A stretch of 64,000 bases of DNA from Arthrobacter citreus (GTDB lineage Bacteria > Actinomycetota > Actinomycetes > Actinomycetales > Micrococcaceae), in contig NZ_VTFV01000008.1 of assembly GCF_009192745.1 (NCBI RefSeq), positions 1-64,000 of the forward strand, read 5' to 3'. The notes beneath the pieces are model-generated. The model was not told the DNA's origin. It was given only the letters and a program-made list of their open reading frames with translations, and made no database searches. Positions 19,165 through 58,776 of this stretch are shown piece after piece. Made by a program: the position numbers and the translations under genes. Position 1 is the stretch's first letter. Every line of letters starts with the position of its first letter.

Positions 19165-19220
19165 CGAGATGACAGAAACTGCTCTTTTGAAGCCTGAAAC
19201 GGGCAGTTTCTGCTATCTCG
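19165..19220. repeat. dispersed palindromic element, copy 1
   Basis: A 56-base inverted repeat begins CGAGATGACAGAAACTGC and ends GCAGTTTCTGCTATCTCG. The arms differ at two positions. It sits between the convergent PPOX and phosphodiesterase genes. The same element recurs at 31832, 57902 and 58720. Confidence 0.9.
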
Positions 19221-19227
19221 ATGGTGG

Positions 19228-20124
19228 CTATGCGTTGCTGAGCGTCCGGGCGTCCAGGATCCGCCGTCCCGCGGCTTCCAGCCGGCGGCGGGTCTCTGTT
19301 TCATCCACCCGTTCGCCCACGGTGCTGCTTTCCTCCAGCGGCACCACGGAGTGGACCACCGAGTCCTCGTACACGTGGATCATGTTGAAGCCCTGGCCGG
19401 CGTCCTGGCCCCGGGTTCCCGGAGTTGCCAGGTCCTGGGTGTAACAGGTGGCCGACGCCACCGAGACCGGAATCCCGGCGAAGGTGGTGAAGGTGGAATA
19501 GTGCAGGTGCCCGGCGATGACCGCACGGACATCGGATCCTTCCAGGGCTGCCGCAAGGTCGCGCTGGTGGCGCAGCTCCACCAGGACCGTCAGGTCCTGG
19601 ACGCTGGGAACAGGCGGATGGTGCAGGGCAAGGATCGTACCCTCCGGCGCAGGAGTCCGCAGGACGGACCGCAGCCAGGAAAGCTGGGAGTCGCTGAGTT
19701 CTCCGTGGTGGTATCCCGGCACCGTCGAATCCAGTGTCACGATCCGCAGGCCGTTGACCTCATACACGCGGTCCATGGGTGCCATGTCCGGCGCTTCGTC
19801 CAGCAGCCGCTCTTTGAAGTGCTCCCGTTTGTCATGGTTGCCCATGACCCAGATGACCTTGGCCCCCATGTGCTCCGCGGCCGGCTCAACGATCGAACGC
19901 AGTTCGTCATAGGCTTCCGGTTCGCCTTTGTCCGTCAAGTCGCCGGTAAAGACGATGGCTTCGGGTTTGCGCTCGGCCTCCGCCAGCCGTTCGAAGAGGG
20001 ATATCAGCTTGGCCCGGCTGTCCACCGCTCCGTACAACGGATCCGGTCCGGCCAGAAGGTGGGTGTCGCTCAGGTGAAGGATGAAATGTCGCGGCCGTGG
20101 GTGCTCGGCCGGGAGGTAATCCAT
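19228..20124 (-). CDS. metallophosphoesterase, cAMP phosphodiesterase (CpdA/Rv0805) type
   Basis: The 298-aa protein has the dinuclear metallophosphoesterase motifs in order: LHLSDTHL near residue 17, [14 protein letters not shown] near residue 60, [12 protein letters not shown] near residue 93, a LALHHPPVP block and [10 protein letters not shown] near residue 203. This arrangement is that of class III cyclic-nucleotide phosphodiesterases. AAGG lies a few bases before the ATG. It is divergent from a DoxX-like gene and convergent with the PPOX gene. Confidence 0.85.
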
Positions 20125-20377
20125 TGGTGACCTTCTTGTGTCGATGACGGGTTTCCCAGTACCTCTTTAATAAAAGCAGAAATCCCGCCTGCGGGGGCAG
20201 TTTGCGTCGGCATGTTGATCCCCCGCACCGAATGTCCGCCTCCCGGCCATGAACCGTTAGCCCATGTCCGGAACGCATGCGGATTCTTCCGTCCGCTTAC
20301 CCCGCGGCCCCTTCCGCCCGTTGGGGTGCGGCCGTAGGCTCGTGCGTGGAAACTGCCCACTGGAGTTAGGACCCACC

Positions 20378-20920
20378 ATGAAAATCAGCCACATCCCGCT
20401 GCGGCTCACCACCGGCGCCTACATCCTGAACTCGGGCCTGAACAAGCGCAGCCTGGACGAAGAGTCCGCCGCCGGGCTGCAGCACCTGGCCGGCAATGCC
20501 TTTCCGCAGGTGCTGGACCTGGAACCGGCGCGCTTCGGCAAACTGCTCTGCGCTGCCGAAATCACCGTCGGCCTGACCTTGCTGACCCCGTTCGTTCCCA
20601 GCCGCCTCGCGGGACTGGTGCTCGGCGCCTTCTCCGGCGGCATGATGCGCATGTACCTCAAGACCCCGGAGTTCACTGAGGACGACGGAATCCGTCCCAA
20701 CGCTGCCGGCACCCCCTTCGCCAAGGACATCTGGATGCTGGGAATCGCCGCGGCCCTGGTCCTGGACACCAAGAGCAAAACCAAGACGAAGACCAAGATC
20801 GTGAAGGTGCCCACGCCGGTGAAGGCGACCGCAGCGGCGGCAGCGGTGAAGGCGGCGAAAGACCTCAAGGAGTCAAAGGGGTCCAAAGAGTCCAAGGACG
20901 CGAAGTCCACGAAAGACTGA
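20378..20920 (+). CDS. DoxX-like membrane protein with lysine-rich tail
   Basis: The 180-aa protein has about three or four hydrophobic segments in the first 130 residues (LLCAAEITVGLTLLTPFVPS, LAGLVLGAFSGGMMRMYL, DIWMLGIAAALVLD), in the manner of small DoxX-family proteins. The C-terminal 50 residues are very different: KSKTKTKTK, an alanine-rich stretch, then repeated Lys-Glu-Ser-Lys units (KESKGSKESKDAK). The tail is presumably cytoplasmic and could contact nucleic acid or other proteins. ATG at 20378 follows TTAGGA. The family assignment is tentative. Confidence 0.65.
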   Translation: MKISHIPLRLTTGAYILNSGLNKRSLDEESAAGLQHLAGNAFPQVLDLEPARFGKLLCAAEITVGLTLLTPFVPSRLAGLVLGAFSGGMMRMYLKTPEFTEDDGIRPNAAGTPFAKDIWMLGIAAALVLDTKSKTKTKTKIVKVPTPVKATAAAAAVKAAKDLKESKGSKESKDAKSTKD

Positions 20921-20941
20921 AGCCGGGACGCCGGAGAAACA

Positions 20942-20967
20942 ATGGTGCCCTCCGCGGAGGGCACCAT
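20942..20967. terminator. perfect palindrome terminator
   Basis: ATGGTGCCCTCC-GC-GGAGGGCACCAT is a perfect 26-base palindrome between the convergent DoxX-like and alcohol dehydrogenase genes. Confidence 0.7.
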
Positions 20968-20979
20968 CGGGTGCAGCCA

Positions 20980-22005
20980 TTAGGGGACCAGCACGATTCT
21001 GATCGGGTTTCCTTCCTTGGCGTCCAGGGACTTAACGGCCTGCTCCGCGTCAGCGAGCGGCAGCCGTGCACTGATGGAGCCGGCAAAGTCCAGGCGTCCC
21101 AGGCGCGTCAGCGAGACGAGCTGCGGTACGTGATGCGCTTCGGAACCGTAGTGTCCCAGGACCTGCTTGCGGGCGAAGGAGAATCCGGTGCTGTCACCGA
21201 TGGTCACAGGCTTTCCGCTGAGGCCCACCAGCACAAGCCTGCCGCGCAGGCCCAGGGAAGCCAGGGCCTGGCTGCGGACGGCGTCGACGCCGGCGAAGTC
21301 CAGTGCGGCGTCGAGCCCCCGGCCGGCCGTGGCAGCTTTTATGGCCTCGGCGAAGTCCTCGGCCAACGGGTCCAGGGCCACGTCTGCTCCCAGCTCCAGG
21401 GCCCGTGCACGTGCTTCGGGGATTGGATCAACAGCAACGATGGGCGCTGCCCCGACCATCCTCAGGAGCTGAACACCATGTGCACCCAGGCCTCCGATCC
21501 CCCAAACCCCTACGGCCTCACCGGCACGCACCTGCGCGGTGGAGGCAATGGCGGCCCACGGTGTGGAAACGGCGTCGGGAATGATGGAGGCCTGGTCAAA
21601 CGGGATGTCCTCGCCCAGCGGCACGCAGACACCGGCGGGGACGACGAGGTATTCGGCCCACCCGCCGTCGTAGTCCACACCCATGGTGAGTGTCACGCCG
21701 TTGTACTCATAGCCTGCCTGGACCACCACGCGGTCCCCCGGGGCCAGAGCGGAAACACCGGGACCCGGCTGGTCGATGGTTCCGGCAACTTCGTGGCCGA
21801 GCGTGACTTCGCTGCCCTTGAGGAACTTGGGGCGCAGCAGCCCCTGGATCAGGTGGACATCGGAGAGGCAGACCCCTGCGGCTTCCACCTTCACCCGGAC
21901 GAATCCCGGACCGGGGTCCGGAACCGGGACTTCCTTGAGTGCAAAAGCGCCGGTCTCAACATTCAGCCGGCCGGCGATCATGGTGCGGGACGTATCTTCG
22001 GACAT
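20980..22005 (-). CDS. MDR family alcohol dehydrogenase
   Basis: The 341-aa enzyme has the catalytic-zinc ligands of medium-chain dehydrogenases (AGVCLSDVHL near residue 45 and LGHEVAG near residue 70) and an NAD-binding GIGGLGAHGVQLL near residue 176. The four-cysteine structural zinc loop is absent: the region after GDRVVVQAG goes straight on to YEYNGVTLTMG. That loss is common in some MDR subgroups. The substrate is unknown. It lies downstream of a second MDR gene on the same strand, with a strong hairpin between them. Confidence 0.8.
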   Translation of the reverse strand: MSEDTSRTMIAGRLNVETGAFALKEVPVPDPGPGFVRVKVEAAGVCLSDVHLIQGLLRPKFLKGSEVTLGHEVAGTIDQPGPGVSALAPGDRVVVQAGYEYNGVTLTMGVDYDGGWAEYLVVPAGVCVPLGEDIPFDQASIIPDAVSTPWAAIASTAQVRAGEAVGVWGIGGLGAHGVQLLRMVGAAPIVAVDPIPEARARALELGADVALDPLAEDFAEAIKAATAGRGLDAALDFAGVDAVRSQALASLGLRGRLVLVGLSGKPVTIGDSTGFSFARKQVLGHYGSEAHHVPQLVSLTRLGRLDFAGSISARLPLADAEQAVKSLDAKEGNPIRIVLVP

Positions 22006-22022
22006 TGCTTACCACCTCGACA

Positions 22023-22062
22023 CTGAGAAGTGCGGTACGCAGCTGCGCACCGCACTTCCCAG
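22023..22062 (-). terminator. hairpin between the two dehydrogenase genes
   Basis: A near-perfect 40-base inverted repeat runs from CTGAGAAGTGCGGTACGCAG to CTGCGCACCGCACTTCCCAG, with 18 of 20 positions paired. It follows the 22109-23164 gene on its strand, so those two genes are probably separate units. Confidence 0.65.
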
Positions 22063-22108
22063 TATTCTCCCGTCCGGCTGCCATTCAAAAACCGGCGCAG
22101 AGGGACTA

Positions 22109-23164
22109 TCAGGCGCTAAGAATCACCTTCAGCGCATTGGTTTCCGCGGCACGCGAGAACGTGTCGTACGCGGTCATCACGTCATTGAGCGGATACCGGT
22201 GGCTGATGAATTCCTCGGCCGGAAGCTTCCCCTCAGCCATGAGCTTCAGCAGCATGGACAGGGTGTCCGTGTTAACCAGGCCCATGCTGATGTCGATGTT
22301 CTCAATCCACAGGCGGTCCAGTTCCAGGCTGACCGGTTTGCCGTGCACACCCACGTTCGCCACGTTTCCGCCTGGGCGGACAATCTCCGTGCACATTTCG
22401 AAGGTCCGCGGAATGCCGACGGCTTCCACGGCGACGTCCACGCCCCAGCCGTCCGTCTGGGACATGATCTGCTCTTTCCAGTCTGAGTCCCCCGAGTTGA
22501 CCCCGTGGGTGGCGCCGAAACGCCGGGCCTGGTCCACCCGGTTCTGGTCCAGGTCCACCGCGATGATCTTGGCCGCCCCGTACAGGCCCGCTGTGGCGAT
22601 TACCGCCAGGCCAACAGGCCCCGCACCGATGACCGCGACGACGTCGCCCGGCTTGGTCCTGCCGTACTGCACGCCCATCTCGAATCCGGTCGGGAAGATG
22701 TCGCTCAGCAGCACGCCGTGCTCCGCAGACACACCATCCGGCAGGATGTACATCGAGGTGTCCGCGTACGGTACCCGAACGTACTCGGCCTGCGTGCCGT
22801 CAATGAGGTGGCCGAAGATCCAGCCGATCCCTGACTGGCCCTCCGATCCGGTGCAGTGCGAATACAGCCCGTCCTTGCAGAAACTGCAGGAGCCGTCCGC
22901 GGAAACGCAGGACAGGATGACTTTGTCCCCCTGCTTGAAGTTCGTGACGCCGGAACCCGTCTCGGTAACGGTTCCCACCCCTTCGTGCCCGAGGATGCGT
23001 CCCGGCGTCACAGCAGGGACGTCGCCCTTCAGGATGTGCAGGTCCGTGCCGCAGATGGTTGTGGTATCGATCTTGACGATCACGTCGCGCGGGTCCTGGA
23101 TCGTGGGATCCGGGACGTCCTTCCAGGCTTTCTGTCCGGGGCCTTCGTAAACGAGTGCTTTCAT
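22109..23164 (-). CDS. zinc-dependent alcohol dehydrogenase
   Basis: The 351-aa MDR enzyme retains both zinc sites: catalytic CGTDLHILKG and GHEGVGTV, and a structural-zinc loop with Cys residues in CVSADGSCSFCKDGLYSHC. The cofactor motif is VIGAGPVGLAVIATAGLYG with an acidic DLDQNR after it, favouring NAD. TTTICGTD and SDIFPTGFEMG resemble formaldehyde- or short-chain-alcohol dehydrogenases. ATG at 23164 was preferred to 23194 because GAGGACACC precedes it. Confidence 0.85.
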   Translation of the reverse strand: MKALVYEGPGQKAWKDVPDPTIQDPRDVIVKIDTTTICGTDLHILKGDVPAVTPGRILGHEGVGTVTETGSGVTNFKQGDKVILSCVSADGSCSFCKDGLYSHCTGSEGQSGIGWIFGHLIDGTQAEYVRVPYADTSMYILPDGVSAEHGVLLSDIFPTGFEMGVQYGRTKPGDVVAVIGAGPVGLAVIATAGLYGAAKIIAVDLDQNRVDQARRFGATHGVNSGDSDWKEQIMSQTDGWGVDVAVEAVGIPRTFEMCTEIVRPGGNVANVGVHGKPVSLELDRLWIENIDISMGLVNTDTLSMLLKLMAEGKLPAEEFISHRYPLNDVMTAYDTFSRAAETNALKVILSA

Positions 23165-23234
23165 GGTGTCCTCGTTCTGCTGGGGTCCGACCACTGGCAG
23201 GCGCGTACGCCTGTTCGGGAGACTTCCCTGTTCA

Positions 23235-23252
23235 GGCCCGGGATCCCGGGCC
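23235..23252 (-). terminator. 18-bp palindrome downstream of the YchJ-like gene
   Basis: GGCCCGGGATCCCGGGCC is a perfect 18-base palindrome in the gap between the YchJ-like gene and the downstream dehydrogenase. No T-run follows. Confidence 0.45.
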
Positions 23253-23312
23253 CACCGTCGGACGCTGGTTAAAGCCTAGGCTCGCTGTGCGGCAGGGGGA
23301 AGGCGCCGGGCC

Positions 23313-23708
23313 CTACTCGCCGGCTACATACAGCCATCGGCCTGCCTCGCGCACGAAGGTGCTGCGTTCACGCTGGACGCCGGCGGCGCCATCCTGCCGG
23401 TAATGGGCTTCAAAGGTCACGGTGCCGGTGGAGTCCAGCGGGGAGCCGGCAACACTGGAGACGATGTCCAGGCGCCGCCAGTTCATCTCCGGGTCAAGGT
23501 CCAGGTGCGCAGGCCGGGAACTGGGGTGCCAGGTGCGGACAAGGTAATCCGTGTCCCCCGTGACAAAAGCCGTGTAGCGCGAACGCATCAAAGCCTCCGC
23601 GGTGGGTGCTGGCGAGGTGCCTGCGTGGAAGCGCCGGCAGCAGTGCTGGTACGTGTCACCGCTCAGGCACGGGCAGCGGTCAGTCTCGGATAACGCCGGA
23701 AAACTCAT
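23313..23708 (-). CDS. YchJ-like (UPF0225) SEC-C metal-binding protein
   Basis: The 131-aa product begins with a SEC-C type zinc-binding motif, CPCLSGDTYQHCCRRFHAG, followed by the UPF0225 block PTAEALMRSRYTAFVTGDTD and YLVRTWHPSSRP. SEC-C motifs bind zinc and occur in SecA and in small proteins such as YchJ, whose function is not established. I start at the ATG at 23708; an upstream TTG/ATG adds an unconserved extension. Confidence 0.8.
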   Translation of the reverse strand: MSFPALSETDRCPCLSGDTYQHCCRRFHAGTSPAPTAEALMRSRYTAFVTGDTDYLVRTWHPSSRPAHLDLDPEMNWRRLDIVSSVAGSPLDSTGTVTFEAHYRQDGAAGVQRERSTFVREAGRWLYVAGE

Positions 23709-23778
23709 CTGTCCAGTATGCGAGAAGAAAGCGGTCCACACCTAACACCGCCGTGTGTACGATTCCCTGCGCCAGGGC

Positions 23779-25206
23779 CTACGGAGGGCTTCCCGTGCTG
23801 GTCCCGCCGACGTGCCCGGGCACCGGCTGCCGGTTCACCGAGTCATCAGCTCCGACTCTGCCGGCCGCCAGTACGACGGCGACGGTCAGGACGGTCATCG
23901 CCAGGACGGCGAGCAGCGCACGTCCCGCCAGCACCGCCCGTCCCGGCTGCAGCGGGAGGGCCGCTGCAGGTGCGAGGGCTGCCCTCGCACCGTTCCTCCG
24001 CCCGCTGCGGGATGCCTTGCGGGATTCGGTGCGGGATTCGGTGCCCGCCGGCGTTCCCGTGTGGGCGATCCGCCCGATGGAGGGCGGGGTGGGAGGTGCA
24101 GCCGGTGTGTGGATGTCAGGATGGTTTGCTTCATCTCCGGCAAGGTAGGCCGCCGCGGCCCGTTCCATCGCAGGGGTGCGGGCATCAGCAACGCTGGTAC
24201 CGGAGGTCCCGGCCGGTTCGGCCGTGTCCGTCCCTGGAACCTGGAGATCATCCGCGGCGCCGTCGGCCGTTGTTTCGCCGGTGGGTGGCTCACTGTCCGG
24301 CCGGGCCTCATGTGCCCGGACCGCGGAGGCAGCAGGCACAGCCGGAGCCGCCCACCGGTAGTCCAGCAGCGCCGCCGAGACCTCTGCCGCGGTCGGTCGG
24401 GAATCGGGGTCGCGCGCCGTCATTCCCGTGAGCAGCGAAACCCACTGCGGTCCCAGTGAAGAGGGGACCTCTGGATCCCGGCTCAGCCTCGAGACGGCTG
24501 CTTCCAGGGGGGTGCCGCCAAACTCGATCCTCCCGGTCAGGCATTCGAGCAGCACCAAGCCCAGGGAGTAGATGTCGGAGGCTCCTGAAGCAGACCGGCC
24601 GGACGCCTGCTCGGGGCTGAGGTAATTGGCGGTGCCGAGCGTGGCTCCGGTCGCGGTGTACCTGGCGCCGTCGATCATCCGGGCGATGCCGAAGTCAGTG
24701 AGCTTGGCGCGGGGTGCCGTGCCCGCGATGGCCGGGGGCAGGAGGATGTTGGCCGGCTTCACATCCCGGTGGATCACTCCCCGGGTGTGGATATAGGCCA
24801 GGGCGCCGGCGAGTTCCGCTCCCACGTAGGCGACGTTGGACGCAGGCACAGGAGCGTCACGCAGCCGCTTGCGAAGGTCCGGACCATCCACCAGTTCCAT
24901 GACCAGGAACGCCCGCGGCTCGCCGTCCGGGCCGTCGTCCCGCCCGGCGTCGTCCTTGCCCGCGTCATACAGGGTGACCAGCCCGGGGTGGGAGAGGGAT
25001 GCCAGAAGCCGCATTTCGGTTTCCTGCCGCCCGACGTCGTCGGGATCAACAGCACTGGCCCGGAAGAGCTTCACGGCTATGTCGCGGCCGAGCGCTTCAT
25101 CCAGTCCTCGATAGACGGTGGCCATGCCACCGTGGCCAATTGGTTCGATGAGTCGGTATCGGCCCGCAATCAGACGATTCAGGCCACCCGCTGCGCTGAT
25201 TTCCAT
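23779..25206 (-). CDS. PknB-type Ser/Thr protein kinase without PASTA domains
   Basis: The 475-aa product begins with a complete kinase domain: glycine loop IGHGGMATVYRG, Lys in IAVKLFR, catalytic loop VIHRDVKPANILL, DFG in LTDFGIARMI and TLGTANYLSPEQA. After about residue 270 there is a Pro/Ala/Glu-rich juxtamembrane region with a Thr-Glu-Ser-Arg repeat, then one membrane segment (VLAGRALLAVLAMTVLTVAV) and a very short outside tail. No PASTA repeats are present, so any sensing part outside the cell is minimal. The ATG at 25206 follows GAAGG. Regulatory targets cannot be told. Confidence 0.85.
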   Translation of the reverse strand: MEISAAGGLNRLIAGRYRLIEPIGHGGMATVYRGLDEALGRDIAVKLFRASAVDPDDVGRQETEMRLLASLSHPGLVTLYDAGKDDAGRDDGPDGEPRAFLVMELVDGPDLRKRLRDAPVPASNVAYVGAELAGALAYIHTRGVIHRDVKPANILLPPAIAGTAPRAKLTDFGIARMIDGARYTATGATLGTANYLSPEQASGRSASGASDIYSLGLVLLECLTGRIEFGGTPLEAAVSRLSRDPEVPSSLGPQWVSLLTGMTARDPDSRPTAAEVSAALLDYRWAAPAVPAASAVRAHEARPDSEPPTGETTADGAADDLQVPGTDTAEPAGTSGTSVADARTPAMERAAAAYLAGDEANHPDIHTPAAPPTPPSIGRIAHTGTPAGTESRTESRKASRSGRRNGARAALAPAAALPLQPGRAVLAGRALLAVLAMTVLTVAVVLAAGRVGADDSVNRQPVPGHVGGTSTGSPP

Positions 25207-25322
25207 GCTGCAACCTTCTCTCGCCATTACAGCGTAACGGAGGGTTCTCAGCGCGTACCTGGGGTCTGGCTACATATTTTCGAACTGCGTTTTTCCCTCG
25301 TAGATGCCGGACCAATACGCTA

Positions 25323-25358
25323 AACTGCCCTGCCGCGCTGGTGCGCGGTAGGGCAGTT
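25323..25358. terminator. 16-bp hairpin terminator
   Basis: AACTGCCCTGCCGCGC pairs with GCGCGGTAGGGCAGTT around a TGGT loop (one G-T pair). It follows the NRAMP gene on the minus strand. Confidence 0.8.
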
Positions 25359-25417
25359 CCAGGGTGCTTCGATCCCGCTCTCCGGAACCGGCGGCGGAGC
25401 CGGCCCGGGACCTTGGA

Positions 25418-26725: not shown

Positions 26726-26829
26726 CGGCCAGGAATTCCTAACTTGCGAGTGTCCGCGGCGCCAAGAGAGCACGCGGCAGTGTGCCCGGCCTCACCCGGG
26801 ACAATGAATTCTCTCACAAGGGGTTGTGC

Positions 26830-27356: not shown

Positions 27357-27711
27357 GGGTGCGGCGCCGGGCGCCGGTCCTTTCGGCGTGCTCTTGCCTG
27401 GCACCGGTTGCCCCGGAGGGCGAGTGCAGGCCGCTTCTTCATCCGAACCACCCAACGAGCGTGGGGTTGGTATGCGGCCAAGTCGGAGCTTGGCGGCCGC
27501 AGTTCTTGAAGCTGTTAGGAGTATAGACAGAAGCCCGCAGATTTTGTGTGCTGCGTTACGCGCGCCGGGCGCTCCCAAGGCTGAAACGTGCGGGGTGTCA
27601 GCCCGAACAGGTCCGTGAAGCCGGGGCGGCACCCATTCCGTGGAGGGATCCCCGCACCGTTCCCTAGGCGTCCCCTAAACACAGACAGGCATCCCTTAAC
27701 ACGCCTTAAAC
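27357..27711. other. intergenic region, no supported gene
   Basis: Nothing coding is supported between the small antitoxin-like ORF and the cold-shock terminator. Open frames have no domain and no ribosome binding site. An A-rich run lies at 27676-27716, just before the terminator hairpin. Confidence 0.6.
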
Positions 27712-28196: not shown

Positions 28197-30011
28197 ATGG
28201 ACTCCCCCATCGATCACTACCTGCAGCGAATCCACACCGAGATAGCGGACCTGAAGGACGGTAAACCGTACAGCTCGATCCCAGCGATGGCGAACGTCGA
28301 CCCGGACAATTTCGGGATCGTCCTGGCCACCGCGGACGGATATGTCTACGAGATTGGGGATACCCGCGAAGAGTTCAGCATCCAGTCAATCTCCAAACCG
28401 TTCACCTACGGCCTTGCGCTGGCGGACCGCGGCATGGACGACGTCGACGCGAAGGTTGACGTGGAACCCTCCGGTGATTCCTTCAATGAGATTTCGCTGG
28501 CCGAGGGCACCGGACGCCCGGCAAATGCAATGATCAATGCGGGCGCCCTGACTGCTACGTCCCTGGTGCGCGGGTCGGGCGGCAATTCGAGGTTCAAGCG
28601 GATACTTAATACCTATTCCGCATTCGCAGGCCGCCAGCTCTCCGTTAGCGAACGGATCTACCAGTCTGAGCTGAAGTCCGGTCACCGCAACCATGCGCTG
28701 GCTTACCTGCTGCGCAGTTTCGACATTATTGAATCGGACCCCACCCCGGTGATTGAGGACTATTTCCGGCAGTGTTCGGTAATGGTCAACACACTGGACC
28801 TCGCCATGATGGCTGCAACGCTGGCCAACAGCGGCAGGCACCCCCTGACCAATGAGCAGGTCCTGGATATTGCGCCGGTGGAACGGGTGCTCTCAGTCAT
28901 GGCTACCTGCGGAATGTACGACGACGCCGGCGCCTGGATGAGCAGCGTCGGCATGCCGGCGAAGTCCGGCGTGGCAGGCGGCACCATCGCCGTGCTGCCC
29001 GGACAGATCGGGCTGGCCGTGTACTCCCCGCCGCTGGATGCCCATGGAAGCAGCGTGCGCGGAGTCGCCGTCGCCCAGCGCCTTTCCAGTGACCTTGAAC
29101 TGCACTTTGTGCGGGCCGGGCGGACCGGCCGCTCCGCGCTTCGCGGGTCCTACGACATCGGAACAACTCCATCCGGCATCCGCCGCAGCGAGGAAGCTGC
29201 CGCCGTGCTGCGCGCCAACGTGGCCCGCGCCCGGATCCTGGAGCTGAACGGTGACCTGCTGTTTGCCGGCGCCGAGGCCATGGTGCGCGAACTCGCATCC
29301 CTGGATGACGACGTCGAACTGGTGGTCCTGGACCTTCGCAGCGTCGATGAGGTGTCCGGGGTGGCGATGCGCATGTTCGCGGAGGCTGCCCACATGCTCA
29401 CCCAGGCCGGGCGCAGCCTCGCGGTCGTGGACGCGGACGGCGCGGTGGCAGAGAGCCTGATGGAGGACGGGCACGACATCCAGTCCTTCGCCACCCGCTC
29501 GGCTGCCGTGGAATGGTGTGAGGAAGAGCTGCTGGAACGCCATGCCGCCGGGCTGGTCCAGCCTGCACGGATCCTTCCGGCTGACTCCCCCGCACTCGCT
29601 CCCATGGGCGAGGAACCGGCGAAGGACGTGGCCGCGCGGATGGAAAAGCTCACCTATGACGACGGCGAGGTGATCCGCCGGATCGGCCAGCGCTTCAGCG
29701 GCGTGTACTTCATTGCCTCCGGGCACGTGCAGACCCTGATGCCCGGACCTGACGGGCACCGGGTGAAACTGAACCGGCTCGGTGCCGGCATGACGTTCGG
29801 CGAGATGGCCCTGGGCGAGGACAGGCGGCAGGAAACCACGGTCAAGGCCGACGGCGCCGTGGAGGTCTGGCGTCTTCCGGCAGAGGAGATCGCGCATCTG
29901 GAAGAAAATGAGCCGCACCTGGCCATGCAGTTCTGGCGCGCACTGACACAGGACGCGTACACCCGGGTGGAGCAGTACCTGCGGGAGACCGCAGTGCGGG
30001 TACAGGACTAG
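28197..30011 (+). CDS. glsA: glutaminase A fused to STAS and cyclic-nucleotide-binding domains
   Basis: The 604-aa protein hydrolyses glutamine to glutamate and ammonia. The glutaminase domain fills residues 1-310: FSIQSISKPFTYGLAL with the Ser-x-x-Lys nucleophile, RPANAMINAGALT, and TCGMYDDAGAW with VGMPAKSGVAGG. A STAS region follows (about 340-440; LELNGDLLFAGAEAMVRELASL, VVLDLRSVDEVSG). A cyclic-nucleotide-binding-like domain is last (about 480-590; YFIASGHVQTLM, FGEMALGEDRRQETT). Activity may respond to a ligand or partner. The ATG at 28197 is divergent from the cold-shock promoter. The palindrome at 30040 and terminator at 30122 follow. Confidence 0.9.
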   Translation: MDSPIDHYLQRIHTEIADLKDGKPYSSIPAMANVDPDNFGIVLATADGYVYEIGDTREEFSIQSISKPFTYGLALADRGMDDVDAKVDVEPSGDSFNEISLAEGTGRPANAMINAGALTATSLVRGSGGNSRFKRILNTYSAFAGRQLSVSERIYQSELKSGHRNHALAYLLRSFDIIESDPTPVIEDYFRQCSVMVNTLDLAMMAATLANSGRHPLTNEQVLDIAPVERVLSVMATCGMYDDAGAWMSSVGMPAKSGVAGGTIAVLPGQIGLAVYSPPLDAHGSSVRGVAVAQRLSSDLELHFVRAGRTGRSALRGSYDIGTTPSGIRRSEEAAAVLRANVARARILELNGDLLFAGAEAMVRELASLDDDVELVVLDLRSVDEVSGVAMRMFAEAAHMLTQAGRSLAVVDADGAVAESLMEDGHDIQSFATRSAAVEWCEEELLERHAAGLVQPARILPADSPALAPMGEEPAKDVAARMEKLTYDDGEVIRRIGQRFSGVYFIASGHVQTLMPGPDGHRVKLNRLGAGMTFGEMALGEDRRQETTVKADGAVEVWRLPAEEIAHLEENEPHLAMQFWRALTQDAYTRVEQYLRETAVRVQD

Positions 30012-30039
30012 CTCCCCTGCCCAACCGCCGAAAACCCAT

Positions 30040-30095
30040 CGAGAGGCCAGTTACGGCTCGTTTGAACGCTCAAACCAGCCGTAACTGCCCTCTCG
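30040..30095. repeat. diverged sister of the dispersed palindrome
   Basis: This 56-base inverted repeat begins CGAGAGGCCAGTTACGGCT and ends AGCCGTAACTGCCCTCTCG. It has the same length, CGAGA...TCTCG ends and TTTGA..TCAAA centre as the dispersed element, but its arm sequence differs. It follows the glutaminase gene. Confidence 0.75.
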
Positions 30096-30121
30096 GCGAA
30101 GAAGTGTGGCGGGGTTAAAAC

Positions 30122-31756: not shown

Positions 31757-31831
31757 GCCTAGATTCTGGCACAGCGCGGCCGGTGCGCCCGCCGTCGTGC
31801 TCCGCGCACCGCTCACCCGGCGCTCCGCTAT

Positions 31832-31887
31832 CGAGATAGCAGAAACTGCCCGTTTCAGACGTCAAACGAGCAGTTTCTGCTATCTCG
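31832..31887. repeat. dispersed palindromic element, copy 2
   Basis: The 56-base inverted repeat CGAGATAGCAGAAACTGC ... GCAGTTTCTGCTATCTCG also pairs inward through GTTT/AAAC and has one mismatch in the arms. It sits between the LLM oxidoreductase stop and the thioesterase start, both minus strand. Confidence 0.95.
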
Positions 31888-31907
31888 CGGGGGGAGGTGG
31901 AGCCGGG

Positions 31908-32897
31908 TTAGGCGGGGATGAGCTCCGCAGCCTCGGCCAGCAGGGTGAATGAACGCAGGCGCTGTTCGAGGGTGGGAGCATGCGTGGCCACGATGAGCTC
32001 ATCGGCCTGGGCATGCTCGGTGAACCAGTCCAGGTAGGAACGGACCTCAGCGGGAGTTCCAACGCCGGAGTAGTGGCCCATCATCTTGATGTGCTGGCCG
32101 GCCGGGGAATCAAGCACCAGGTCAGCTTCCTCATCCGTGTACGTGCGGTCCTTGCCAAGCAGCTGGGTGACCCGCCGCCGCTGGGACTGCTTGAAGATTG
32201 CTTCCGCCTCTTCGGTAGTGGGCGCGGCAAGGGCGTTGACCCCCGCAATCACGTACGGCTCGGCAAGCTGCTCGGAGGGCTGGAACTCACGCCGGTAGAG
32301 CGCGACGGCGTCCTGCAGTGCCTGCGGAGCGAAGTGGGAGGCGAAGGAGTACGGCAGGCCCAGCGCGGCGGCGAGGCGGGCTCCGAACAGGGACGAGCCG
32401 AGGATGTACAGCGGCACATTGGTGCCCTTGCCCGGGATGGCATCGATGCCCGGAATCAGGCTGTTGCCGGTCAGGTAGCCCTGCAGCTCCTGGACGTCGC
32501 GGGGGAAACTGTCCGCTGACATGGGATCGCGCCGCAGGGCGCGCATGGTCTTCTGGTCGCTACCCGGAGCCCGCCCCAAGCCCAGGTCAATCCGTCCCGG
32601 ATACAGGGACTCCAAGGTTCCGAACTGCTCGGCAATGGTCAGCGGAGCGTGGTTGGGCAGCATGATTCCGCCGGCACCGAGCCGGATGGTGGAGGTGTTC
32701 GCGCCGATGAAGGAGATCAGCACGCTCGTCGCGGAGGAAGCGATGGTGGGCATGTTGTGGTGCTCGGCGTACCAGACGCGGCGGTACCCCAGCTTTTCCG
32801 CATGCCGGGCCAGGGCCAGGCTCTCCTGGAAGGATTCGGCTGCAGTCCCGCCCTCTTCAATGGAGGCGAAGTCGAGGATGGAAAGCGGGTACGTCAT
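31908..32897 (-). CDS. LLM class flavin-dependent oxidoreductase
   Basis: The 329-aa protein has the luciferase-like monooxygenase pattern: [58 protein letters not shown] and [12 protein letters not shown]. It fits the MsnO8-like subgroup that uses a reduced flavin from a partner. Start at 32897. No reductase partner is adjacent. The substrate is unknown. Confidence 0.85.
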
Positions 32898-34321: not shown

Positions 34322-34338
34322 GGGACGTCAGGACAAAG

Positions 34339-34374
34339 GAAGAGGCACCGCGGCGTTCACCGCGGTGCCTCTTC
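34339..34374. terminator. 15-bp hairpin terminator
   Basis: GAAGAGGCACCGCGG pairs perfectly with CCGCGGTGCCTCTTC around CGTTCA, between the convergent DUF72 and potC genes. Confidence 0.85.
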
Positions 34375-34393
34375 GATTGCAGCTGACGGTTCC

Positions 34394-47068: not shown

Positions 47069-47090
47069 CCCACCAGCCCGCAGTACCCGT

Positions 47091-50900: not shown

Positions 50901-50959
50901 CCTTCGGCCGGGCCACCCCAGCCGCGACCAGCACCCAAACCACTTTCACGGAGTACGAC

Positions 50960-52453: not shown

Positions 52454-52499
52454 CACCCCCGCAGCGCCGCCAACCGCACCCCTTTTCCGGAGGTTTCCC

Positions 52500-53537: not shown

Positions 53538-53546
53538 ATCCCGTCC

Positions 53547-54509
53547 CTAGATTCCCAGAGCGGCCAGGTTCTGCTTCAGGGTCTCCGCGGAGTCCTGCAG
53601 CAGCTGCTGCTCATGCTCATCCAGCGGCATTTCCAGCATCTTGTACACCCCGCCGGACCCCACGATCGAGGGCAGGGACAGTGCGACGCCGGAGATTCCG
53701 TGGACTCCGCGCAGCAGCGCCGAGACCGGCAGGACGGCGTTCTCGGCCTGGAAGACCGCCTCGACGATCCGCACTCCGGCCAGGCCGATCGCGTAGTTGG
53801 TGGCACCCTTGCCTTCGATCACCTTGTAGGCCGCGTTGACGACGTCGTCCGTAATGGAGGCAAGTACTTCATCGGTGAAGACCTGGCGCCCGCTGATGGT
53901 CCATTCGCGGATCGGGACCGGCCCAATGGTGGCACTGGACCAGACCGGGAATTCACTGTCCCCGTGCTCACCGATGATGGTGGCATGCACGCTGGTCATC
54001 AGCACGTGTGCCTGCCGGGCCACCAGCAGCCGCAGCCGTGAGGTGTCCAGCACCGTGCCGGAGGAGAAGATCCGGTTCGGCGGCAGGCCCGTGATCTTCT
54101 GCGCCGCGACGGTAAGGATGTCGCACGGATTGGTCACGAGGATGTAGACAGCCTCCGGGGCCTGCTCCATCAGGGCCGGCATCAGGGTTTCCATGATCCG
54201 GACGTTGGCGGCCGCCAGGTCCAGCCTGGTCTGTCCGGGCTTCTGCCTGGCGCCGGCGGTCACAACGATGACGTCGGACCCTGCCAGCGCTTCGATCCTT
54301 CCCCCTCCGGCCACGGTATTGGCCCCGGTGAACTGGGTCCCGTGGGACAGGTCCAGGGCCTCCGCTTCGGCACGGGTGGCGTCGATGTCATAGATGACGA
54401 TTTCCCGTGCCGCTTCACGGATCAGGGACGCGTAGGCCAGCGCCGTACCCACGCTTCCCGCCCCGACTATTCCGAGCTTGGTGACTGGTCTGGTGGTGAT
54501 GTTGGCCAT
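53547..54509 (-). CDS. ldh: L-lactate dehydrogenase
   Basis: The 320-aa protein has NAD-binding GIVGAGSVGTALAYASL, the substrate loop with Arg in AGARQKPGQTRLDL, ILVTNPCDILT, and the catalytic His in IGEHGDSEFPVWSSAT. It reversibly reduces pyruvate to lactate. The gene is convergent with the nitrilase, with only nine bases between stops. Confidence 0.88.
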   Translation of the reverse strand: MANITTRPVTKLGIVGAGSVGTALAYASLIREAAREIVIYDIDATRAEAEALDLSHGTQFTGANTVAGGGRIEALAGSDVIVVTAGARQKPGQTRLDLAAANVRIMETLMPALMEQAPEAVYILVTNPCDILTVAAQKITGLPPNRIFSSGTVLDTSRLRLLVARQAHVLMTSVHATIIGEHGDSEFPVWSSATIGPVPIREWTISGRQVFTDEVLASITDDVVNAAYKVIEGKGATNYAIGLAGVRIVEAVFQAENAVLPVSALLRGVHGISGVALSLPSIVGSGGVYKMLEMPLDEHEQQLLQDSAETLKQNLAALGI

Positions 54510-54604
54510 GGCTTTGTGCCCCGCTCACAGTAGGAGGATCCCCCTACATGGCACTATAGGTTCCCCTTCCCCGCGGCGGAACGGCTTCGGGCGCGGGCAC
54601 TTCC

Positions 54605-55297
54605 TCAGTTTGCGAAACGGCGGAGGAAGGACCGCTTTGACCGCTGGATATGGGCACGCATCAGTTCCTCCGCTTCGGTGGCGCTGCCTGCGTCCACCGC
54701 TGCCAGGATGGGGCGGTGCTCAGACCAGGAGTCCCGTCCGCGGAAGCCGACGTCCGATGCGTAGAGCCATTCGATCTTCCCCGCCAGCTGGGCCAGCAGC
54801 GCCTGCAGCGACGCGCTGTCCGCCAGTTCCGCGATGCCCCGGTGGAATCCCAGGTTCAGTTCCGGCAACGCGTCCAGCCTGCCTTCCGAAGCGGCAGCGT
54901 CTCCGGCAGCCAGGATTTCCCCGAGCCGGCGCCGAACGGCCCACCAGTCCGGGTCCGGGGTGCCCGCAGCGGCCTGCCGGCCGGCACGCTCGGCGGCCCG
55001 CCGCGCCGTCGCTCCTTCCACTGTTTCCCGGACATCGAACAGGTCCCCGGCTTCCCCCGGTTCCAGGCGGGCAACCCGGGACCCGGCGTAGGGGCGGGAC
55101 TCAACGAAGCCTTCGGCTGCGAGCGCCCGCAGCGCTTCGCGCACCGGCACGCGGGAGGATCCGTAGCGGGCTGCCAGGGCTGCCTCGGTGATCTTGGCGC
55201 CCGGGGCCAATTCGCCGCGGATGATGTCCTGCCGGATCCGGTCCCGGATCCGCGGTTCCCCGGGAAGGTCAGCGGCCTGCGGCATAGCCCTGCGCAC
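54605..55297 (-). CDS. GntR family (FCD) transcriptional regulator
   Basis: The 230-aa product has a winged HTH (IRDRIRQDIIRGELAPGAKI, then SSRVPVREALRALAAEGFVE) and an FCD C-terminus (DLFDVRETVEGATARRAAER, LNLGFHRGIAELADSASLQA). The start overlaps the stop of the gamma-glutamyltransferase gene, so it is coupled to it. GTG at 55297 or ATG at 55285. Likely controls that gene and possibly the DUF1275 gene across the divergent promoter. Confidence 0.8.
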   Translation of the reverse strand: MRRAMPQAADLPGEPRIRDRIRQDIIRGELAPGAKITEAALAARYGSSRVPVREALRALAAEGFVESRPYAGSRVARLEPGEAGDLFDVRETVEGATARRAAERAGRQAAAGTPDPDWWAVRRRLGEILAAGDAAASEGRLDALPELNLGFHRGIAELADSASLQALLAQLAGKIEWLYASDVGFRGRDSWSEHRPILAAVDAGSATEAEELMRAHIQRSKRSFLRRFAN

Positions 55298-57083
55298 CGC
55301 GCGGATTGGCGGCAGCCATCAGCACGCCGGTCTGCGGATCACGCACGACGGCGGAAAGCCGGCCCAGTGCCCAGTCCCCTGCCCGGGTGATGACGTGGCC
55401 GCGGTCTGCCAGGGCTTCAATGACCTCAGTACCCAGCCGGTCTTCCACGACGGCGCCGCCCGGAGTCCAGGTCCGCGGCCAGAACGAGCCGGGCAGGGAG
55501 GTGGTGTGGAAGGCCGGGGCGTCGATGGCCTGCTGCGGCGTGTAGCCACCCACGATCGTGCGCAGCAGGTAAAGCAGCTGCCATTGGTCCTGCTGGTCCC
55601 CGCCGGGTGAGCCGAGGGCGGCCACCGGCTGGCCGTCTTTCAGGACCAGGGTGGGGGTCAGGGTGGTTCGAGGCCGCTTGCCCGGCTGCAGGGTTGAGGG
55701 CGCTCCGTCCTCCAGCCAGGTCATCTGCAGGCGCGTTCCCAGGCAGAACCCAAGTTCCGGAATGGTGGGCGAGGACTGCAGCCAGCCGCCCGAGGGGGTA
55801 ACCGAGACCATGTTGCCCCAGCGGTCCACTACGTCCACATGGCAGGTGTCCCCGCGGGTTTCCCCGGTGGGCGAGACGGTTGGTTCCCCGGTTCCGTCAC
55901 CGCCCGCTGCGGCGTCGTGCGCCAGTGCCGGCGGCACGTACCCGGTGCGGAGCGGCGGCTGGAAGGCAGTGTGTCCGGGAACCTGCCCGGGACGGAATTC
56001 CAGGGAAGCCAGCGGGGTAATCTGCTCGCGCCGGCTGGCGGCGTATTCCTCGCTCAGGAGGTAGTCCAGCGGCACGTGGCCGTCCCCGTAGTACGCCTCC
56101 CGGTCCGCGATGGCGAGCTTCTGCGCCTCCAGGATCGTGTGGATACCCAGCTCGGTGGAGGGGTCAAGGTATTCATCGGCGAATCCGTCAAGGATCGCCA
56201 GGGTCTGCAGGAGCGCCGGCCCCTGGCCCCAGGGGCCGGTCTTGGCAATGGTGTAGCCGCGGAATTCAAACGTGAGCGCCGGCTCGTATCCGGCTTCGGA
56301 AGCGGCGAAGTCCGACGCCGTGATCACCCCGGCGTGATCCGTTCCGGAGGAGTGCCGGTGCGGTTTGGCGGCGAATTCTGCGGCCGCCTGCGCCACGAAA
56401 CCCGTGCTCCATTCCCGGCGGGCGGCATCGATGCGCTCCTCGCGGGTGCCCCCGCTGTCCCCGGCGCCGGCCAGCCGCTGCAGCACTGCGGCGTAGGCCG
56501 GGTTGGTAACCAGTTCCCCTTCGGCCGGCGGCCGGCCTTCGGGCATCCACAGCTCGGCAGAGGTGGGCCAGTGGTCCTGGAACAGCCGGGCCACCTGTCC
56601 AATAGTCCGCCCCACCTGGGCCAGCACCGTGTGGCCGTCCCTGGCGTAGCCGGCGGCGTAGGCCAGCACGTCTGCCAGTTCCCAGGTTCCGTGGTCGCGG
56701 AGCAGCAGCAGCCAGGCATCGACGGCGGCGGGAACGGCGGCGGCCAGGGCCCCGGACCCCGGGACCAGTTCCAGGCCCTCGGCGACGAAGTGCTCACGGG
56801 TGGCTCCTGCCGGTGCGCTTCCCTGCCCCATCAGGACCACCGGTTCGGAAGGGTTTTCCGCGGTGGCAAAAACGCCGGTGAGGTCACCGCCGGGACCGTT
56901 CAGGTGCGGTTCCACAACGTGCAGGACGAATCCGGCTGCCGCGGCGGCGTCGAACGCATTTCCGCCGCGTTCAAGGACGGACTGCGCGGCGGCGGTGGCG
57001 AGCCAGTGCGTGGAAGCGCTCATCCCGAATGTGCCCTGCAGGGTGGGCCTGGTGGTGAACGTGCCGGGGGCAGTGAAGGACAT
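55269..57083 (-). CDS. gamma-glutamyltransferase family protein
   Basis: The 604-aa protein has the autoprocessing Thr in GDTCHVDVVDRWGNMVSVTP, QSVLERGGNAFDAAAAAGFV, and GSPGGDQQDQWQLLYLLRTI near the C-terminus, so it belongs to the GGT/Ntn-hydrolase family. No signal peptide is visible, suggesting a cytoplasmic enzyme, perhaps acting on gamma-glutamyl amines or cephalosporin-like substrates. It is cotranscribed with a GntR regulator and divergent from a DUF1275 gene. Confidence 0.82.
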   Translation of the reverse strand: MSFTAPGTFTTRPTLQGTFGMSASTHWLATAAAQSVLERGGNAFDAAAAAGFVLHVVEPHLNGPGGDLTGVFATAENPSEPVVLMGQGSAPAGATREHFVAEGLELVPGSGALAAAVPAAVDAWLLLLRDHGTWELADVLAYAAGYARDGHTVLAQVGRTIGQVARLFQDHWPTSAELWMPEGRPPAEGELVTNPAYAAVLQRLAGAGDSGGTREERIDAARREWSTGFVAQAAAEFAAKPHRHSSGTDHAGVITASDFAASEAGYEPALTFEFRGYTIAKTGPWGQGPALLQTLAILDGFADEYLDPSTELGIHTILEAQKLAIADREAYYGDGHVPLDYLLSEEYAASRREQITPLASLEFRPGQVPGHTAFQPPLRTGYVPPALAHDAAAGGDGTGEPTVSPTGETRGDTCHVDVVDRWGNMVSVTPSGGWLQSSPTIPELGFCLGTRLQMTWLEDGAPSTLQPGKRPRTTLTPTLVLKDGQPVAALGSPGGDQQDQWQLLYLLRTIVGGYTPQQAIDAPAFHTTSLPGSFWPRTWTPGGAVVEDRLGTEVIEALADRGHVITRAGDWALGRLSAVVRDPQTGVLMAAANPRGAQGYAAGR

Positions 57084-57138
57084 GGTTTCGCTTTCGTAGG
57101 CTGCGGCGGCTGGAGTTCGGCGAATTCAGGGAGATTGA

Positions 57139-57170
57139 ATACAAAACCCACATATCAGTCGGTTTCGTAT
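57139..57170. promoter_or_regulatory. inverted repeat in the GGT/DUF1275 divergent promoter
   Basis: ATACAAAACC (57139-57148) and GGTTTCGTAT (57161-57170) are inverted arms with nine of ten positions paired and a 12-base spacer, in the AT-rich gap between the two divergent genes. Likely the site for the linked GntR regulator. Confidence 0.5.
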
Positions 57171-57204
57171 ACATTAGGCGGCATTGCTGAGGAAAGGGAA
57201 GCCC

Positions 57205-57900
57205 ATGAAACGCCTCAATGCCGTGCCCACCGAGCGGGTGCACCTGTGGTTGATGCTGGCGCTGACATTCTCCACCGGGGTGATCGACGCCGTTGGCTAC
57301 CTTGGCCTGGACAACGTCTTCACCGGCAACATGACCGGCAACGTAGTGCTCCTTGGCATGGCCTTTGCCGGAGGTGCGGACCTGCCGGTTCTCCGGCCCG
57401 CCCTGGCGCTGGTGTTCTTTATGCTCGGTGCGGCGCTGGCGGGGCGGATGCTGCGCCGGGGACCGGAAGGATGGTCCGGGCGCATATCCGCGGCACTGAT
57501 GATCGTGGCGTCCGGAATTACCGTCCTCGCAGTGTTCACCGCAGTGGTGGACGTGCAGGCGAACAACGTCCTGGGCAGCGTCACCACCTCCTCCATGGCC
57601 ACGCTGATGGGCATTCAGGCGGCCACCGCCAAACGGCTGAAGGTCGCGGAAGTGACCACCGTCGTCGTCACCTCCACGATCACCGGCCTGGCGTCGGATT
57701 CGCGGCTGGCCGGCGGGGACAGCAAGTTCTGGGCGCGCCGGGCGCTGGCAATCTCGCTGATCCTGGCCGGCGCCGTAGCCGGGGCGGCTGCCTTGAACGT
57801 GGGGCTGTGGCTGGGACTGGCGCTTTCTGCCCTGATTTCGACGGCGGTGGCAGTGTTTGGCTACGTGCGTCACCACCGTGAGCTCCGCGCCATCCCCTAA
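57205..57900 (+). CDS. DUF1275 (YoaK-like) membrane protein
   Basis: The 231-aa product has six membrane segments and the DUF1275 hallmark FTGNMTGNVVLLGMA near residue 42, with TSSMATLMGIQAATAKRL later. Function unknown. ATG at 57205 follows AAAGGGAA. A copy of the dispersed palindrome lies immediately after its stop. Confidence 0.85.
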   Translation: MKRLNAVPTERVHLWLMLALTFSTGVIDAVGYLGLDNVFTGNMTGNVVLLGMAFAGGADLPVLRPALALVFFMLGAALAGRMLRRGPEGWSGRISAALMIVASGITVLAVFTAVVDVQANNVLGSVTTSSMATLMGIQAATAKRLKVAEVTTVVVTSTITGLASDSRLAGGDSKFWARRALAISLILAGAVAGAAALNVGLWLGLALSALISTAVAVFGYVRHHRELRAIP

Positions 57901-57901
57901 C

Positions 57902-57964
57902 CATCGAGATGACAGAAACTGCCCGAAAAAGGGGGTCTAACGTGCAGTTTCTGCAATCTCGATG
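57902..57964. repeat. dispersed palindromic element, copy 3
   Basis: A 63-base inverted repeat begins CATCGAGATGACAGAAACTG and ends CAGTTTCTGCAATCTCGATG. Two arm positions mismatch, at the same place as in copy 1. It lies between the DUF1275 stop and the GNAT gene. Confidence 0.9.
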
Positions 57965-58012
57965 AGGGGACGTTGCCGGACGCCGGGCGCCTTCGGGTTT
58001 ACAGTAGTGGGC

Positions 58013-58552
58013 ATGCTGGAGCAGGAACCCGGAGACTGGACTCCGGTACGCACACCGCGGCTGCTGCTGTGCAGGCCCGAAGCACGGGATGAGGCAGCGG
58101 CCATAGACCTCCATACCGATCCGCGCACCAACGTGCACCATCCGGTGCCCTCGAGCGTCACCCGGGCATCCTCTTCCCGGACCTTCCACGAAATCCGGCA
58201 GCACTGGTACCGGCACGGGTTCGGAGTCTGGGCGGTTTTCCCCGCCGACGAGCCCGGCCAGCTGATTGGCTTCACCGGAGTGTCCCGCCGGGTCGTTCGC
58301 GGCAGGCCCGCCCTGAACCTCTACTACCGCTACTCCCCCGAGGTCTGGGGCCAAGGGCTGGCGACCGAGGGCGCACTGGAGGCGGTCCGCCTGGCCGAGC
58401 AGCTGCTGCCTGGCCTGCCGGTGGTCGCCTATACCTCCGTGGACAACATCGGTTCCCAGCGCACGGCGCTGGCTGCCGGACTCGAGCGGCGCGAAGACCT
58501 GGACGTGGACCGGGGCGCCTATCTGGACCTCTATCTCGCCAAGGGCTGGTAG
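58013..58552 (+). CDS. GNAT family N-acetyltransferase
   Basis: The 179-aa protein has the GNAT core: RTPRLLLCRPEARDEAAAID, LNLYYRYSPEVWGQGLATEG (motif A, coenzyme A binding) and AYTSVDNIGSQRTALAAGLE. This layout is that of RimJ/RimL-like acyltransferases. Start ATG at 58013. The substrate is unknown. Confidence 0.8.
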   Translation: MLEQEPGDWTPVRTPRLLLCRPEARDEAAAIDLHTDPRTNVHHPVPSSVTRASSSRTFHEIRQHWYRHGFGVWAVFPADEPGQLIGFTGVSRRVVRGRPALNLYYRYSPEVWGQGLATEGALEAVRLAEQLLPGLPVVAYTSVDNIGSQRTALAAGLERREDLDVDRGAYLDLYLAKGW

Positions 58553-58719
58553 CACTCCTACTCCGGATACAGCGATTAATCCGCAACTTTTCCGAAGCCA
58601 GCCTCCGGCCCTGCTGCCAACTCCGGAGGCTGCGCAGGGGCAAGCTGATCTCTCCGCGGAACCTGGCAATTGCCGCCGCAGCGGTGACCATGAGCGGGCA
58701 GGACTAGTTCTCCCCTCAA

Positions 58720-58776
58720 CGAGATGGCAGAAACTGCCCGAAAGGAGGGGTCTAACGGGCAGTTTCTGCCATCTCG
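58720..58776. repeat. dispersed palindromic element, copy 4
   Basis: The 57-base inverted repeat has perfect 20-base arms, CGAGATGGCAGAAACTGCCC and GGGCAGTTTCTGCCATCTCG. It carries a GATGGC/GCCATC pair where copy 2 has GATAGC/GCTATC. It sits between the GNAT gene and the convergent HpaI-like gene; bases 58553-58719 hold nothing else I can support. Confidence 0.95.

Follow-up and report, generated by a model that had tools for sequence, protein, structure and literature searches.

A dispersed family of palindromes of about 62 bp at gene 3' ends in Arthrobacter and its association with a predicted AbiEi-like/DUF559-type nuclease gene

Repetitive extragenic palindromes (REPs) measure 20-50 nt and carry a GTAG or CGTC tag, as described in two papers (PMC8266576, PMC3733652), the second of which places them mainly 3' of genes and between convergent genes. 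REP biology has so far been tied to Y1 transposases, namely the RAYTs, with which PMC2817692 is concerned. A second group of comparable elements is that of hairpins at transcript ends: compensatory pair switches are reported for Bacillus cereus terminators, and hairpins in general favor convergent gaps (PMC5381666, PMC1590033). Here we describe a family of palindromes that came to light in a 64,000-nt stretch of Arthrobacter citreus DNA (positions 1 to 64,000 of contig NZ_VTFV01000008.1, assembly GCF_009192745.1), referred to below as the window. The existence of this family, the coupling of its two arms and its association with a gene for a predicted AbiEi-like/DUF559-type nuclease are well supported, and from them we infer copying by the nuclease and a function at gene ends.

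The palindrome unit is 56 nt long, usually 62 nt with an outer CAT/ATG, and reads CGAGAT-NN-CAGAAACTGC-CCGTAT followed by 8 nt and then back. The arm pattern gives 69 matches in the 3.55-Mb genome and none for a reversed-pattern control. A profile model built from 20 copies (R1) gives 141 strand matches, which manual reduction brings to at least 72 places, a lower bound with 150 of 1400 R1 candidates scored and with one of the 72 being a 41-nt partial match. Of the extracted copies, 65 are 62 nt long, six are 63 nt and one is 41 nt. Three subfamilies are set apart by changes in both arms (46 copies in A, seven in B and 14 in C by a simple rule, with five unassigned), and all 28 pairs are perfect in eight of 65 copies. 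Contig C4 of G000 (651 kb) is short of copies, with five against 13.2 expected by length (Poisson 0.009; one of eight contigs tested). The original prediction had reported four inverted repeats in the window (19165-19220, 31832-31887, 57902-57964 and 58720-58776), and both these coordinates and their intergenic position hold against the called genes. The window contains a fifth, diverged copy at 30037-30098 (about 30040-30095 in a repeat scan) that had been missed. Allowing one mismatch, the arm core GCAGAAACTGC matches 14 times in the window against 1.15 (standard deviation (SD) 1.05) in 100 shuffles.

The two arms of the palindrome change together. Copy 2 has GATAGC/GCTATC where copy 4 has GATGGC/GCCATC, and copies 1 and 3 are mismatched at this spot, exactly as first noticed; the loop said to be common to copies 3 and 4 is shared over most of its length, not over the whole. 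Among 71 copies, 86.5% of the 28 outer pairs are Watson-Crick, compared with 73.7% (SD 1.0, maximum 77.2%) when 3' arms are reassigned among copies. Whole pairs switch at position 6 (T-A in 57 copies, G-C in 13), position 16 (T-A in 54, G-C in 17) and position 25 (G-C in 34, C-G in 24), and the hypervariable dinucleotide at positions 7-8 is complementary between arms in 49 and 48 of 71 copies against 30.3 and 28.8. A set of 26 sequences that includes five of a second genus has 88.2% of its cells paired, against 68.9 (SD 1.2); with slid partners the figure is 36-43%. Its covariation of 0.481, against 0.151, is reached by none of 500 shuffles; relatedness among the sequences inflates such tests. 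RNA folding energies of the five copies in the window range from -29.4 to -44.2 kcal/mol, with z between -6.6 and -11.0.

Coupled changes are also found at orthologous sites, taken from 20-kb stretches of the genomes G005, G017 and G025 placed by collinearity and from the paa locus of 20 genomes of the genus. When own copies of 62-63 nt are compared with G005, G017, G025 or G023, a palindrome of at least 18 of 28 pairs is present in 47 of 53 comparisons and none in six. Eight of the 47 have more than 16 arm differences and were dropped, leaving 39 comparisons at 22 loci that share one reference and so are not independent, with 123 differences in 2184 arm sites. Divergence is 3.2% at arm positions 1-6 and 9-21, 33% at positions 7-8 and about 11% in the aligned flanks (88.6% mean identity). 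Both arms have changed at 27 positions against 11.8 expected (SD 2.4, maximum 21 of 5000), an expectation that allows for the hot positions 7-8, a simple position-shuffle null of 5.3 being too lenient. Twenty of 25 double changes, from nine of the 22 loci, lead from one Watson-Crick pair to another (one third expected, p 2e-6); changes in one arm only number 69. The paired changes of the original prediction thus persist in larger alignments of both paralogues and orthologues. Its reading of them as selection for pairing, or as a structured RNA, is upheld by this covariation, but template switching between the arms at the DNA level could yield the same pattern. At C3:1124836, G005 and G017 share a four-base change in their left arms, which G017 alone also has in the right arm; template switching, an arm-to-arm mechanism treated in PMC8794818, would be expected to give this pattern.

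We further note that copies are swapped, gained and lost between species. At the junctions paaZ><paaR and DUF6480><asnC, subfamily A is present in G000, G005, G017 and G025 and subfamily C in G023; C3:881197 holds A in three species and C in G017, and C3:957429 holds C in G000 and an A-like hybrid in two others. More distant species have unrelated GC-rich hairpins at the same two junctions in several cases and nothing clear in others (such as G021 at paaZ><paaR), and in five outgroup genomes the paaZ><paaR junction has unrelated hairpins scoring 19-24 of 26. Sites free of the element are C3:746042 and C3:1314868 in G005, C3:779111 and C3:1358087 in G017, C3:917557 in G025 and the 3' side of paaG in G023; a remnant TTCGATG at a G017 element-free site points to deletion. 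In G005, other hairpins stand at C5:255378 (with a T-run terminator) and at C3:917557. Comparisons of filled and empty sites, whose flanks have diverged, give no clear target-site duplication, and copy-specific loops persist at orthologous sites. Different, longer palindromic sequences of CAGATAACGGGG type lie 3' of paaG in G001 and G022 (L178 and L179), which represent other species of the genus, and pyrimidine tracts are expanded in some flanks, with CCTCA repeats at the DUF6480-asnC junction of G023 (L172) and about 37 C/T-rich nt at the C3:881197 orthologue in G017, which suggests growth by slippage.

The copies are placed at gene ends. With orientations from a home-made gene caller, 38 of the 72 lie between convergent genes, 26 between tandem genes and eight between divergent genes. 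Of the 72, 61 have a called stop codon no more than 34 nt away (median 16), and both stops lie within 40 nt in 29 of the 38 convergent cases. Convergent placement is thus more frequent than among window gaps of at least 40 nt (seven of 36; Fisher p 0.0009), three of these seven convergent gaps themselves holding family copies. Nearly all copies are intergenic, with one inside the end of a called open reading frame. Next to the element the flanks are C-rich and G-poor (0.53 C and 0.14 G against 0.39 and 0.31 at 27 other 3' ends), a bias also present on the far side of tandem copies (0.46 C, 0.21 G). An extension of the stem into these flanks is unsupported, flank pairing being at composition level (6.88 against 6.99, SD 0.13).

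Among six close pairs of copies in the genome, the pair C2:20782/21871 encloses a gene for a predicted AbiEi-like/MTES_1575-DUF559 nuclease, and the other five enclose genes that resemble host enzymes, judged by eye alone. The own-genome frame encodes 321 aa (L088:1851-2816, minus strand), and proteins of this kind (about 320 aa) combine an AbiEi-like N terminus with an MTES_1575/DUF559-like nuclease C terminus. Pfam searches match MTES_1575, a restriction-nuclease-like domain, in three of four proteins (E 1e-4 to 6e-7) and AbiEi_4 in one (0.0014). A tblastn search over the collected loci finds a homologue at 18 of them, and four other aligned proteins are 35-47% identical to the own-genome nuclease. 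Nine units, selected near palindromes, come from four genera of the family (own genome and G007; G263, G059 and G168; G119 and G096; G179) and from G287 of another family. In all nine, a palindrome of 21-28 of 28 pairs ends 51-60 nt before the start codon and a second of 23-26 of 28 begins no more than about 21 nt from the stop, or in G007 runs into the 3' end of the frame. Random windows drawn from these loci reach 17-19 pairs, except for 26 in the G168 locus, which has another copy close by. The arm sequence of these gene-enclosing palindromes differs from group to group, and a TGTGGAYA motif lies 3' of the upstream palindrome in all nine units and in three Arthrobacter records.

This association is also seen among ten homologues chosen without regard to palindromes (three from Arthrobacter, four from Tsukamurella, one from Nonomuraea, one phage-labelled and the G005 paralogue L208), nine of them from protein searches of plasmid and phage records and the tenth through collinearity. 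Counting 10-mers shared by the 220 nt before and after the gene, seven of the ten (StoSoilB13-1, ERGS1:01, the phage contig and the four Tsukamurella units) score above all random window pairs taken from their own locus. Two of the Tsukamurella units have clear palindromes and the other two shared repeats only; at identities of 28-33%, the kinship of these units is tentative. In one genome, that of Tsukamurella tyrosinosolvens (L404-L407), four DUF559-like genes each lie between their own kind of matching repeats.

Beyond the genome itself, the exact arm pattern is found in seven of 59 near genomes, all of the same genus, and R1 is positive in 16 of 29 genomes of the genus. A different arm sequence in the same frame (CATCGATTGCTCCGTAACTGCC) is present in 11 of 17 sampled genomes of the genus g31, and palindromes of the same length were read from g7, g8, g41, g31 and G007. 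A second model, R2, is positive in 58 of 158 genomes of the family and 13 of 119 of the order, counts that do not by themselves amount to homology as R2 rewards any good 62-nt palindrome; the palindromes of G287 are supported because a homologous nuclease gene lies between them. Over 77 of 80 paa loci (L117, L144 and L151 left out), R1 gives one weak locus. The consensus palindrome has no blastn match on phage or plasmid records, among 100 IMG/VR stretches that contain the arm pattern the 80 covered have no palindrome at that place (13 of 20 outer pairs at best), and there is no nuclease relative among 53 IMG/VR pattern matches. Within the sample, Arthrobacter sp. zg-Y238 shares 98.4% identity over 19.7 kb with G027, a genome of the same genus. 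The locus L117, on a contig titled Vibrio cholerae strain 35D, is an Arthrobacter-like paa locus with a PaaA 85% identical, and probably reflects a contaminated or mislabelled assembly. In the literature, subscription titles lying outside the search, we found no title or abstract opening that describes the palindrome family or a DUF559-palindrome pair; papers listed for the arm strings are, by title, on other subjects, and generic palindrome counts for A. livingstonensis are given by RepRanger (PMC12306157).

The REP-RAYT (TnpA-REP) systems share with the Arthrobacter elements the many short extragenic palindromes 3' of genes, the enzyme gene placed between copies of the same palindrome, as in a REPtron, and a palindrome type particular to each enzyme. 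They differ in the enzyme, which in Arthrobacter is MTES_1575/DUF559-like with an AbiEi-like N terminus and not Y1, and in the palindrome, which here is symmetric in arms and flanks, about 62 nt long and without a GTAG/CGTC tag, in contrast to the strand asymmetry and 20-50 nt of REPs. Bidirectional intrinsic terminators are alike in position, hairpin, two-way placement and compensatory pair switches; unlike them, the Arthrobacter palindromes have no U-run and a much longer stem, have a sequence common to many sites, and are gained, lost and swapped as a unit. Free-standing homing endonucleases, including Vsr-like ones, offer the precedent of a small nuclease able to spread a DNA segment by cutting and repair, but the Arthrobacter nuclease gene lies between palindromes that are also found alone in many copies.

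Taken together, we put at about even the chance that the palindromes form a dispersed family paired with the nuclease gene, an analogue of RAYT-REP in which the copies would serve as two-way gene-end hairpins. The nuclease would recognize its palindrome, and cutting by it, followed by repair, would place copies of it at new sites, in the manner proposed for RAYTs and REPs but through an enzyme of a different class. New copies would persist where the slot of a terminator can be taken. Transcribed from one or both sides, the palindrome would form a hairpin about 16 nt 3' of the stop codon that terminates transcripts or protects mRNA 3' ends in both directions, and selection on the hairpin, together with template switching in the DNA, would keep its arms complementary.

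Several observations weigh against this proposal. Within the 26-sequence set, two weaker measures are not extreme: pairs with double changes (19 against 16.3) are equalled in 34 of 500 shuffles and the number of pair types (38 against 32.8) in eight of 500. Palindromy extends to the central 4 nt, which cannot pair in a hairpin (30 of 65 copies against 20.1, SD 3.0), and this speaks against a pure RNA reading. In tandem copies GU outnumbers AC by 26 to 15, which is no more than a hint. Up to eight of the 72 copies are called between divergent genes, and on re-inspection at least two of these eight have an overlooked gene whose end falls within or at the element. An ordinary hairpin stands beside the element at C3:881197, and no strong hairpin is present at the six element-free orthologous sites, so that a terminator is not always replaced. 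As for the nuclease, Pfam scores lie under the curated cut-offs (22-30 bits against 38.2 for MTES_1575, 11-18 against 20.6 for DUF559), the G287 protein has no Pfam match, the nuclease proteins have no NCBIfam match, and no solved structural relative was found. The way in which the nine units were selected also counts here. Of the homologues chosen without palindromes, StoSoilB13-2 (H2) is not above controls by shared words, its palindromes of 25 and 18 of 28 pairs with similar arms being seen by eye, and the Nonomuraea gene and L208 have no flanking repeats. Finally, the nuclease gene adjoins purL in seven of the nine units, so that the unit is old and positionally conserved and looks fixed, not jumping.

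The conserved purL neighborhood fits a second explanation, in which the two palindromes next to the nuclease gene serve that gene as operator and terminator, and the copies scattered elsewhere are additional sites for the protein to bind, or remnants. The protein would then bind duplex DNA without moving the repeat. AbiEi-type proteins bind inverted repeats, and the position of the upstream palindrome before the start codon, with the TGTGGAYA motif in between, is as would be expected of an operator. The symmetric conserved blocks, palindromic center and C-rich flanks on both sides likewise fit a duplex site. We nevertheless consider this explanation unlikely: the most divergent dinucleotide (positions 7-8) stays complementary between the arms, which a duplex site does not need, the placement at stop codons is left unexplained, and copies have been gained and lost between species.

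Still less probable, in our assessment, is a passive repeat with no function at gene ends, whose coupled changes come from template switching and whose copies survive at 3' ends since insertions elsewhere are purged. The pattern at C3:1124836 and the central palindromy agree with such a repeat; against it, the arms outside the dinucleotide have diverged far less than their flanks, the copy-specific loops persist at orthologous sites, and terminator hairpins are absent at several sites that hold the element.

Two further explanations have very little left to recommend them. Classical REPs moved by a RAYT would match the many extragenic copies 3' of genes and between convergent genes, and the original prediction of a REP/MITE-like mobile element holds as regards copy number, intergenic position and turnover between species; it fails on the symmetry and length, on the tags, which are rare near the ends (GTAG in one of 72, GGAG in none and CGTC in six, counting up to 8 nt outside and 4 nt inside), and on the TnpA-REP partner it envisaged, since Y1/RAYT transposases (PF01797) are found in none of 29 genomes of the genus and seven of 158 of the family, with five of 14 control genomes positive, so that this origin is largely refuted for the genus. 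Ordinary intrinsic terminators alike by chance or composition are hardly tenable either: the terminator slot is occupied, and in copies 1 and 2 a simple scan picks out the inner hairpin of A type, with AGTTTCTG after it, as terminator-like, but a 56-62 nt sequence common to about 70 places refutes chance resemblance, at least four T in 8 nt follow at just six of 102 transcribed sides, and subfamily C has GTAACTGG where A has GTTTCTG. The original statement that the palindromes are not ordinary terminators therefore stands on sequence and scarcity of T-runs, with the qualification that copies occupy the slot of ordinary terminators in some relatives.

The copies in the window and their adjoining genes are listed in Table 1. 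At the Rfam gathering score there is no match at the palindromes, with sub-threshold matches to miRNA hairpins at copies 3 and 4; the sole match in the window above that score is a SAM-IV riboswitch at 27385-27511 on the minus strand. Other convergent gene pairs have GC-rich symmetric hairpins outside the palindrome family (10036-10089, 16851-16897, 20940-20970 and 34334-34379), and a simple terminator scan finds a T-rich tail on the non-family hairpin at 34339-34374.

Table 1. Palindrome copies in the 64,000-nt window and the genes next to them
Feature	Positions	Strand	Remarks
Copy 1, subfamily A	19162..19223 (core 19165-19220)		In a convergent gap, at the upstream gene's stop codon; RNA fold -29.7 kcal/mol, z -7.5
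Fifth copy, subfamily C (CGAGAGGCCAGTTACGGC...)	30037..30098		3' of the glutaminase gene; RNA fold -40.0 kcal/mol, z -9.4
Copy 2, subfamily A	31829..31890 (core 31832-31887)		Directly 3' of the luciferase-like gene (-), ahead of the next minus-strand gene; RNA fold -36.6 kcal/mol, z -10.0
Copy 3, subfamily A, 63 nt	57902..57964		Directly 3' of the DUF1275 gene stop; RNA fold -29.4 kcal/mol, z -6.6
Copy 4, subfamily A, 63 nt	58717..58779		Between a GNAT gene and the convergent HpcH/HpaI aldolase gene; RNA fold -44.2 kcal/mol, z -11.0
Pyridoxamine 5'-phosphate oxidase-like gene	18733..19164	+	Copy 1 starts right at its stop
Calcineurin-like phosphoesterase (metallophosphoesterase) gene	19228..20124	-	Convergent; copy 1 core ends 7 nt short of its stop
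Glutaminase gene with STAS and cNMP-binding domains	28197..30011	+	Ends 28 nt upstream of the fifth-copy core
Luciferase-like monooxygenase gene	31908..32897	-	Ends 20 nt from the copy 2 core
DUF1275 gene	57205..57900	+	Ends 4 nt before the copy 3 core
HpcH/HpaI aldolase gene	58809..59579	-	Convergent on copy 4; 32 nt from the copy 4 core

In a broader form, which we regard as possible though short of an even chance, the pairing of palindrome and nuclease would be a phylum-deep counterpart of REP-RAYT: AbiEi-like/DUF559-type nucleases would each lie between palindromes of their own, copied elsewhere by the nuclease through cutting and repair, which invade terminator slots and become two-way gene ends. 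Such units would have been in Micrococcaceae long enough for clade-specific arms to arise, with similar units in Tsukamurella (Mycobacteriales). If true, a second class of enzymes would have palindromes of its own, and spreading palindromes with domesticated enzymes would have arisen more than once. Proteins now annotated as hypothetical or DUF559 would also gain a function. The family bears on how transcripts end between convergent genes in high-GC actinobacteria without U-runs, and it supplies many orthologous hairpins with which selection may be separated from template switching.

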